NCBI GenBank assembly: GCA_945831575.1
Contig: CAMACX010000008.1
Span: 16,224-80,223 of the forward strand
Direction: 5' to 3'
Origin: an uncultured Mediterranea sp.
GTDB taxonomy: Bacteria > Bacteroidota > Bacteroidia > Bacteroidales > Bacteroidaceae
DNA: 64,000 bases
This document shows, in pieces, positions 50,898-53,642 of the stretch (position 1 is the stretch's first letter; each line of letters starts with the position of its first letter). Under the pieces are notes generated by a model. The model had not been told where the DNA came from, did no database searches, and saw nothing but the letters and a program-made list of their open reading frames with translations. The position numbers were made by a program, and so were the translations under genes.

Positions 50898-53642
50898 ATG
50901 GCGAAGAAGACTCAGTTAGGCTACAAGGAGATTGAACAGAGGCTGTCGGCACTGAAAGAGCCGGTCAATGCCTCTATAGTGGGCTACATGCTGCTGCTTG
51001 CCTTTGGCAAAAGTGAACGCGAGGTAAGTCGCTACGTGGAAGGCAAGGGCGTGGTCGCCCGATTTGACGGACTACTTATCAAAGGGCTGTTGGCCTATCG
51101 GGCCACCGACACCCTGCACCTGCGTGACACGCTGGAAGCACTGAAGCAGGACCTCACCGTGCTGCGGGCAGCGCCCAAGATAGCGGCCGTCAGTGACGGT
51201 CGTACGCTCCTGGCTTATGACCTGCGTGAAAGGGAGACCTACGAGAATCCTCTTTCACGCCTGCATTGCGACTTCGCCTTCTTCTATCCCCTGATGGACA
51301 TTGAGCGGGTGCGCTACGTGGAGGAGAGCCCTGCCGACATCAAGGCGGCCGAGAAACTGGCCAAACTGCACGACGAGCTGCGTGCCTACAACGACTTCAG
51401 CAGCGACGACGACCTGCACGACCTCAACATCTTCATCACGCGCCTGCTGTTCTGCTTCTTTGCCGAAGATACCGGCATCTTCGAAGAACAGCTCTTCACC
51501 TCCTCCATCGAGCGCTACACCAAGCCCGATGGCAGCGACCTGAGCGACTACTTAGACGAAGCCTTCAACATCATGGACCGCCCACAGCGCAGTGACGACA
51601 CTCCGCACATCATCACCCAGTTCCCTTACGTCAACGGCGGACTCTTCTCGCGCCGCATCGCTATTCCCCGCATGGGTGCCAAGGCGCGCCGCCTCATCCT
51701 GGAGTGTGGCGAACTGGACTGGAAGGACATCAATCCCGACATCTTCGGCTCTATGATTCAGGCGGTGGTCAATCCCGAAGAGCGGGCCACCCAAGGCATG
51801 CACTACACCAGTGTGCCCAACATCATGAAGGTCATCAATCCCCTCTTTCTGGACGAACTGCGTGAAGCTTACAACAAGCTGAAGGCTGACTACGACCGTC
51901 AGAAGCAACTGCTCGACATGGGAGGGCAGACGGGCAAGGCTTTTCGTACCAACTGCCTGCCCATTATCCGCAAGGGCAACGAACTGCTGAGCCGTATGAG
52001 CCGCATGAAGTTCTTCGACCCCGCCTGTGGCAGCGGCAATTTCCTCATCATCACCTACAAGTCGCTCCGCCTGTTGGAGATGGACATTCTCCGCCTGCAA
52101 CAACTCTGTGAGGGCGGTCAGGGTGCCATTGGCTCCATGATAGGTTCCATGATACGTATCAATCAGTTCTATGGCATCGAGTTGCTCGACTTTCCCCACG
52201 AAGTGGCCATGCTCTCCCTTTGGCTGGCCGAGCATCAGATGAACAAGAAACTGTTCGATGATTTCGGTATCCGCACCGATGCGTTGCCTCTTCATAACAT
52301 CACACAGATAGTTTGCGGTAATGCCTGTCGCCTCGACTGGAACAGCGTCTGTCCTCATACGGCTGATGAAGAAGTGTTTGTCTTTGGTAATCCGCCGTAT
52401 CTGGGAGGAAAATTGCAGTCGAAAGAACAGAAGTCGGACGTTATTCATGTATTAGGCAAACTTCCCAGTTTTAAGAATCTCGACTATATCTCAAATTGGT
52501 TTTATAAGGTATCGTATTATTTATCTCTAAATAGTAAAGCCGCTTTTGTTAGTACAAATTCAATTGTGCAGGGAGAACAAGTAGGAATGCTATGGCCTTA
52601 TATTTTACGCGATACAAATGAAATAATCTTTGCTTATAAATCGTTCAAATGGGAAAACAATGCAAAAAATAATGCAGGTGTTACATGTGTGATTATTGGA
52701 ATAGCTCCAATAGAAATTAATCGGAGGAAACTATTATTTGATAACACGTCATCAAAAGCAGTGAAGAATATATCGCCATATCTTTATGAAGGGAATAATA
52801 CGATTGTACATTCTTCTAACTATTCGATTTCTGATTTACCTCAAATGGAATATGGGAATATGCCCTTAGAAGGGGGATTCTTGAAATTAAATGAAAGTGA
52901 GAAAACTGAAATACTATCCCACTTCCCAGAAGCTAACCAATATATCAAGTCATTAATAGGTGGTGAGGAAATGATAAATGGTATCTCAAGATATTGTTTA
53001 TGGATTGATGACAAGGATTTAGAAGATGCATACAAGATTCCGCCTATTAAACAGAGAATAGATGGAGTATATAATTTCCGAATTGATGCTGGTGAAGTTG
53101 CAAGGAGTTTAGTAAATAGACCTCATCAATTTCGTTATCGTAAAGTTGCTCAGAAAAATGAAATTCTGATTGCATGTACTTCTTCTGAAAGAAGAGAATA
53201 CTTGCAATGCGGATTCTATGATGCAAGCTATATTACGATGAATTCTATTGAAGTTATATATGATGGGGATTTATGGGTATTTGGGATTCTTTCTACCAAA
53301 ATTCACATGATGTGGACCAAAACGATTGGAGGATATTTAGGTACAAGTATTCGCTATTCTACTCAGCTCTGCTACAACACGTTCCCCTTCCCCAAAGTGA
53401 GCGAAGCCAAGAAGAAGGAGATTGAGGAAGCCGCTGAGGAGGTACTGATTACCCGTGAGTATTATCCCGGCCAGACATTGGCCGAGCTGTACGACCCCGA
53501 CACCATGCCGCAAGACCTGCGCGAAGCACATGCCCGTCTGGACGACATCGTGGAGAGCTGCTATCCCGGCTATCCTTTTGCCAACGATGAAGCCCGACTG
53601 GAATGTCTGTTCCGCCTCTATGAACGTATGATCGCCAAATAA
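50898..53642 (+). CDS. MmeI-like class I SAM-dependent DNA (N6-adenine) methyltransferase without an apparent endonuclease motif
   Basis: Motif I FFDPACGSGNFLI, motif IV FGNPPYLGG; helical spacer HDLNIFITRLLFCFFAEDTGIFEEQLF; TRD then C-terminal AYNTFPFPKVS-like region (CYNTFPFPKVS); no D...ExK pattern in the N-terminus. Confidence 0.88.
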   Translation: MAKKTQLGYKEIEQRLSALKEPVNASIVGYMLLLAFGKSEREVSRYVEGKGVVARFDGLLIKGLLAYRATDTLHLRDTLEALKQDLTVLRAAPKIAAVSDGRTLLAYDLRERETYENPLSRLHCDFAFFYPLMDIERVRYVEESPADIKAAEKLAKLHDELRAYNDFSSDDDLHDLNIFITRLLFCFFAEDTGIFEEQLFTSSIERYTKPDGSDLSDYLDEAFNIMDRPQRSDDTPHIITQFPYVNGGLFSRRIAIPRMGAKARRLILECGELDWKDINPDIFGSMIQAVVNPEERATQGMHYTSVPNIMKVINPLFLDELREAYNKLKADYDRQKQLLDMGGQTGKAFRTNCLPIIRKGNELLSRMSRMKFFDPACGSGNFLIITYKSLRLLEMDILRLQQLCEGGQGAIGSMIGSMIRINQFYGIELLDFPHEVAMLSLWLAEHQMNKKLFDDFGIRTDALPLHNITQIVCGNACRLDWNSVCPHTADEEVFVFGNPPYLGGKLQSKEQKSDVIHVLGKLPSFKNLDYISNWFYKVSYYLSLNSKAAFVSTNSIVQGEQVGMLWPYILRDTNEIIFAYKSFKWENNAKNNAGVTCVIIGIAPIEINRRKLLFDNTSSKAVKNISPYLYEGNNTIVHSSNYSISDLPQMEYGNMPLEGGFLKLNESEKTEILSHFPEANQYIKSLIGGEEMINGISRYCLWIDDKDLEDAYKIPPIKQRIDGVYNFRIDAGEVARSLVNRPHQFRYRKVAQKNEILIACTSSERREYLQCGFYDASYITMNSIEVIYDGDLWVFGILSTKIHMMWTKTIGGYLGTSIRYSTQLCYNTFPFPKVSEAKKKEIEEAAEEVLITREYYPGQTLAELYDPDTMPQDLREAHARLDDIVESCYPGYPFANDEARLECLFRLYERMIAK

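Follow-up and report, generated by a model that had tools for sequence, protein, structure and literature searches.

How does a DNA methyltransferase gene come to carry, in the midst of GC-rich sequence, a sharply bounded AT-rich block over the part that is predicted to read the target? The question is raised by a dnmA-like gene in a 64,000-nucleotide stretch of DNA from an uncultured Mediterranea sp. (hereafter the window), which encodes an adenine DNA methyltransferase of the MmeI fold and is followed by genes for a YeeB-like helicase and a YeeC-like protein. The initial annotation of this DNA had proposed that the specificity module, held in the target-recognition domain (TRD), was swapped by recombination while the methyltransferase core and the partners stayed fixed. 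The gene is a mosaic, its parts give conflicting trees, the edges of the block recur among relatives and the partner genes are unchanged, and recombinational exchange of a specificity block in DnmA is very probably the explanation.

The AT-rich block and its GC-rich surroundings, first noticed by eye, proved to be well defined. Likelihood segmentation of the open reading frame (ORF) placed one change point at 52441 (support 52347-52470) and the other at 53361 (support 53302-53389); the G+C content (GC) is 0.560 before, 0.329 within and 0.552 after the block. The lowest GC over 300 codons was 0.329, compared with a lowest value of 0.406 in 10,000 codon shuffles, and GC at third codon positions (GC3) falls from about 0.6-0.9 to 0.07-0.4. 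Because fourfold-degenerate sites show the same fall in the Bacteroidota relatives taken together, amino-acid composition is not the cause of the dip. The dip is present in every Bacteroidota relative examined and therefore dates no single event; it is not by itself the mark of one recent swap, and its use as a clock for one exchange was ruled out on this ground. Among 35 Bacteroidota relatives, GC at fourfold sites is 0.54 in the flanks vs 0.22-0.23 in the block, and block GC regressed on flank GC gives slopes of 0.26 and 0.31. The TRD of 42 Actinomycetota tracks flank GC at a slope of 1.07 (mean difference -0.19), and in Ligilactobacillus salivarius, which is AT-rich throughout, the contrast between block and flank is almost nil. 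A shared pool of AT-rich cassettes in Bacteroidota fits these data, and such a pool may be independent of its carriers, since block composition follows the surrounding enzyme weakly (slope 0.26-0.31 at fourfold sites). The dip may also stem from selection that keeps GC low in this part of the gene.

The case for exchange is carried by comparison with relatives. A locus from another uncultured Mediterranea sp. (L006) is colinear with window positions 48443-56789 at 79-87% nucleotide identity, with a gap only at the block. The two DnmA proteins are 95% identical in the flanks vs 58% at residues 501-600, 34% in TRD-N and 43% in TRD-C (the two parts of the TRD), and their partners are 94% (YeeB) and 91% (YeeC) identical; at the nucleotide level identity runs 0.87, 0.52 and 0.89, with edges at residues 504 and 819. 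Divergence between these orthologues is thus far from even along the gene. The Prevotellaceae locus L007 presents the reverse case, with 66% identity to the window in the flanks and 63% in the block. The flank tree joins the window to L006 and the block tree joins it to L007, each with support of 100/100, and the approximately unbiased (AU) test rejects window plus L006 for the block (log-likelihood difference 116, p 8e-5) and window plus L007 for the flanks (log-likelihood difference 527, p 4e-5). The conflict is direct evidence of recombination, and the proposal of a swapped specificity module is supported. L112 and L113, two Bacteroidales loci that belong to other families and whose flanks are 42% identical, carry the end of the window's block, GYLGTSIRYST, together with its position-1 residues, and are the best block matches to the window after L007 (54% and 51%).

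A reading without recombination would have the TRD, under diversifying selection, drift towards AT-rich codons by fast point mutation. Specificity domains do diverge fast, the dip runs throughout the Bacteroidota relatives and the end part at residues 784-824 looks merely slower, all of which this reading would accommodate. However, fast mutation alone does not account for the conflicting identities and trees of flank and block in L006 and L007, together with the block residues shared by L112 and L113. The window's block groups with L007 rather than with its flank sister by the AU test, sharp edges recur across sister pairs and the block alleles of L. salivarius, described below, are mostly discrete, so that divergence by mutation is very unlikely to be the explanation.

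The limits of the exchanged unit were drawn from 64 breakpoints in 31 disjoint sister pairs. Thirteen of the 64 fall within ±6 residues of 502, directly after motif IV, ten of 824, seven of 783 and five of 600, where 0.95 would be expected in each case; breakpoints inside conserved motifs are not placeable to the residue, and the pairs display divergence rather than the event itself. Those at 783 were not adopted as crossovers, as the segment 784-824 may simply evolve more slowly. Recurrent edges were found in sister pairs of both Bacteroidota and Actinomycetota, and the full block pattern is also seen in Nesterenkonia L062/L065, among the complete-plasmid and isolate examples. In the window, comparison with relatives places the start at about residue 501-504 (52398-52407), after NPPYLG, and the end before YNTFP (52407-53369). 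The initial annotation had correctly begun the block just after NPPY (residues 498-501) and ended it before CYNTFPFP (residue 825), although the unit itself starts some 35 bp before the GC edge.

It had also taken the interval to hold the TRD, and this agrees with the Pfam assignment (MmeI_TRD, residues 632-834), the alignment to the MmeI structure 5HR4 and the AlphaFold model, whose best match is again 5HR4 and which places the TRD nowhere else. The unit is larger than the TRD, with about 110-130 residues of the methyltransferase domain (Pfam residues 361-614), from the base-contacting loop after motif IV, travelling with it; the rest of the core and both partners stayed fixed as proposed. 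The minor-groove contacts of MmeI to base pairs 2 and 4 are made by K487, S488 and K489 (PMC4833311), the counterparts of residues 504-506, and by mapping from the 5HR4 alignment residues 502-824 hold every residue equivalent to an MmeI base contact, in the loop, TRD-N and TRD-C. Since these contacts span the distance from loop to TRD, the methyltransferase segment in between must travel along.

Smaller units occur besides the full block. The near-identical Rothia enzymes L074 and L046 differ only in residues 601-756, which cover TRD-N and a short stretch before it; this naturally occurring difference in half of the domain is expected to change mainly target positions 1-2. In L096 and L097, residues 357-505 are only 58% identical to the window, below their other flanks, which suggests that a further exchange unit may lie upstream of motif IV in that lineage.

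The plasmid search returned relatives below 60% identity, which led to the L. salivarius strains, nine plasmids of which carry the dnmA operon. Outside the block their DnmA proteins are 94-99% identical; alignment columns hardly vary as far as NPPY(L)G, and variation sets in beyond it, in the contact loop first. The block alleles are 97-99% identical within groups and 46-56% between them, with one pair near 82% (L153 and L160 to L154). Across the 32 pairs whose blocks differ, mean identity is 98.2% for YeeB (minimum 97.1%) and 96.0% for YeeC (minimum 93.5%). These strains bear on whether the block of another organism in the metagenome was wrongly joined at the conserved anchors. The window does come from a draft genome of 84 contigs, and conserved anchors could mislead an assembler, yet such an artefact is hardly credible: the frame is intact and free of stops, the dip is family-wide and the pattern is repeated in named isolates and complete plasmids, namely the nine L. 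salivarius strains and the Nesterenkonia pair.

Shuffling within the genome, by which silent cassettes would be recombined into dnmA in the manner of an hsdS shufflon or domain movement, is common for Type I S genes (PMC3983042, PMC4948785), and dnmA of L. salivarius does contain an invertible segment, albeit outside the block. For the window it can be given little credence, because the genome (a draft with about 5% missing) yields one block-like match only and no second cassette, the block is not bordered by long direct or inverted repeats, and the ORFs read beside the operon included no recognisable recombinase gene. Domain movement (DoMo) in particular was rejected, as the gene has a single TRD and no repeats at the block edges.

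The invertible segment of L. salivarius, about 262 bp in length, is flanked by the arms AAAAGACAACG and CGTTGTCTTTT. It is inverted, with the frame broken, in six of the nine plasmids (L155, at 9466-9759, L156, L158, L159, L160 and L161) and forward, with dnmA intact, in the other three (L153, L154 and L157). It looks like an on/off switch within the coding sequence, and a limited literature search found no report of this inversion. A few kb upstream of dnmA (L155:1-3027, with equivalents in L156-L161), hsdM and a short Type I S gene are accompanied by a gene for a site-specific integrase, which could be the invertase of the segment.

Table 1. Features of the dnmA operon in the window, with proposed roles and the basis for each.
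Feature	Coordinates	Strand	Basis
dnmA-like gene, 914 amino acids (aa), MmeI-fold adenine DNA methyltransferase	50898..53642	+	Pfam, PADLOC, 5HR4, AlphaFold/Foldseek
Unexchanged 5' part: N-terminal domain without PD-(D/E)XK triad, helical spacer, methyltransferase motifs I-IV	50898..52406	+	~95% aa identity to L006; GC 0.56
Motif IV NPPY, residues 498-501, proposed upstream exchange anchor	52389..52400	+	13/64 breakpoints at residue 502±6
Probable exchanged specificity block, residues 504-824	52407..53369	+	Drop in nucleotide identity to L006; tree conflict; AT-rich 52441-53361
G504-K505-L506, predicted counterpart of K487-S488-K489, the minor-groove contact loop of MmeI; where variation in the block begins	52407..52415	+	5HR4 mapping, PMC4833311; varies among L. 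salivarius strains
TRD-N, residues 631-754, predicted to read target positions 1-2	52788..53159	+	Mapped from MmeI 621-745; alone differs in L074/L046
TRD-C, residues 755-834, predicted to read target positions 3-6	53160..53399	+	Mapped from MmeI 746-825; Pfam MmeI_TRD to 834
G815-T-S817, predicted counterpart of MmeI position-6 pair E806/R808	53340..53348	+	Mapping; code from PMC4833311
CYNTFPFP, from residue 825, proposed downstream exchange anchor	53370..53393	+	10/64 breakpoints at 824±6
yeeB-like superfamily 2 (SF2) helicase, 653 aa	53652..55613	+	Pfam DEAD/ResIII; 94% to L006
yeeC-like T5orf172 / GIY-YIG protein, 299 aa	55893..56792	+	Pfam T5orf172; 91% to L006

The window DnmA has the complete Pfam series MmeI_N/hel/Mtase/TRD/C and matches the PADLOC entry REase_MTase_IIG at 939 bits. 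By sequence its only relative in the PDB is MmeI (5HR4; 582 bits), which is also the best Foldseek match (E 1.3e-64, TM-score 0.85 on target) of the AlphaFold model (mean predicted local distance difference test score, pLDDT, 85.6). Spacer, gamma-class methyltransferase, two-part TRD and C-terminal bundle are common to both, and the contact positions can be mapped from one to the other. MmeI has a nuclease triad of D70, E80 and K82 (PMC4833311), whereas no PD-(D/E)XK triad was found in the N-terminal region of DnmA: no acidic residue is conserved among the relatives at positions 14-105, and position 60, two before K62, is L, V or I in nearly all of them. An N-terminal region without the triad is likewise stated for the DnmA family (PMC7261158). 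Because its chain has no active PD-(D/E)XK nuclease, the window DnmA is a relative of Type IIL enzymes, with the MmeI domain order and fold, and not itself a Type IIL enzyme. PglX/BrxX of the bacteriophage exclusion (BREX) systems is similar in being an MmeI-related methyltransferase that sets the specificity of a defence system (PMC11341690; Foldseek matches), but it has about 1200 residues with a long C-terminal part, whereas the window DnmA ends in MmeI_C at residue 914. Identity with PglX was rejected, as this extension is absent and the neighbours are YeeB- and YeeC-like rather than brx genes.

By gene order and the nuclease-less N-terminus, the operon appears to be of the DnmA-YeeB-YeeC type. 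The system of Bacillus subtilis (DnmA is also known as YeeA) likewise comprises a nuclease-less MmeI-like methyltransferase, an SF2 helicase and a T5orf172/GIY-YIG gene in the same order (PMC9973331, PMC7261158), an order that is kept in 67/67 relatives whose sequence extends more than 4 kb downstream; a Bacillus plasmid operon is annotated in the same way. The B. subtilis operon is thought to be a relic, whereas in the window the motifs of YeeB (GKS, DEFHH and QIIGRCTR) and YeeC (GYIYVL...KIGV...R...E) are conserved and the reading frames are free of stops. Systems of this type place m6A on a single strand of a non-palindromic site. The target of B. subtilis DnmA is GACGAG, and the available part of PMC9973331 describes no exchange of a specificity block for it.

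In MmeI, the residue pair E-R at position 6 reads C and the pair K-D reads G (PMC4833311), and this code was applied to residues mapped through the 5HR4 alignment. L006 has K-D; the window has G-S, a rare pair (3/96) to which the available papers assign no base. The predicted position-6 readers also differ within the near-identical pairs L007/L016, L096/L097, L015/L017 and L155/L161, the last of which (L. salivarius P1CEA3 and SNK-6) have blocks 97% identical but E-R vs K-D. Exchange of the block has presumably changed the target sequence. What the available part of the MmeI-family literature describes by way of specificity change is the switching of residue pairs; exchange of a whole block, with part of the catalytic domain in it, is not among the cases given there.

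Several points weigh against this account. Samples of the genus, family, order and class yielded no near-identical donor block (the best, L007, is 63% identical), and the viral contigs that were searched gave one weak, irrelevant match. The window and L006 both come from draft assemblies, and by sequence comparison either of them may be the recipient of the new block. Conserved motifs can draw breakpoint estimates to themselves. No methylation motif is on record for the window or its relatives. Finally, the system showed no restriction activity in B. subtilis (PMC9973331, PMC7261158), and defence is not to be assumed here.

Exchange would have proceeded by homologous recombination with imported DNA, anchored in motif-IV NPPYLG and in YNTFPFP, with residues ~504-824 replaced by a divergent allele from another bacterium. 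One such event would rewrite the target and leave S-adenosylmethionine (SAM) binding, the catalytic NPPY, the N-terminal region and both partner genes untouched, and the block would act as an allelic cassette that sets the specificity of a DnmA-YeeB-YeeC system for modification and, probably, restriction. Because the partners stay fixed while the reading residues of DnmA change, YeeB and YeeC probably recognise no sequence by themselves, and it is likely that they depend on DnmA for specificity. If they act through DnmA or its methylation state, a swap would alter modification and restriction together. A Type I-like model in which helicase and nuclease rely on DnmA was suggested by Morgan and colleagues, as cited in PMC7261158. 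On function the published accounts disagree: restriction was not seen in B. subtilis, whereas deletions in Vibrio crassostreae raised sensitivity to some phages (as reported in PMC9973331). Phage pressure may be what drives exchange; an active defence role in this organism is somewhat favoured. We put forward only tentatively the wider picture of an active Type I-like defence with one specificity determinant, passed between bacteria as a motif IV-to-YNTFP cassette, and with an AT-rich pool in Bacteroidota moving independently of the carrier systems.

Two features adjoin the operon. Upstream of dnmA, window positions 50257-50358 form a long inverted repeat with 45-nucleotide arms (82% complementary), relatives of which lie on other contigs of the same genome in both orientations. 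After yeeC, positions 56750-57650 are low in GC and include an odd repetitive ORF on the minus strand (56753-57424) with no Pfam match.

Type I, Type III and Type IIG systems are already known to exchange TRDs (PMC3983042, PMC10423294). In Helicobacter pylori, recombination has given Type I S, Type III Mod and Type IIG genes different TRDs on one allelic backbone, including inside Type IIG methyltransferases (PMC3983042, PMC10423294). Those systems belong to other protein families, whereas the DnmA unit starts at motif IV inside the catalytic domain, and sub-units of it (TRD-N alone) also differ between sisters. A search covering part of the literature found no report of TRD exchange in DnmA-YeeB-YeeC; what is new is the DnmA family, the limits of the unit, its recurrence across phyla and the proposal that DnmA supplies the specificity of both helicase and nuclease.

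B. subtilis DnmA, which is the family member studied best, has been described as belonging to a restriction system that is defunct. A defence that works under changing phage pressure would be expected to exchange its specificity repeatedly and keep its partners, which is the pattern seen in several phyla. It also argues that neither helicase nor nuclease has its own target and that both rely on DnmA. Strains that differ only in the block make this dependence testable, and the crossover points found in nature show at which places specificity blocks can be joined in enzymes of the MmeI fold.
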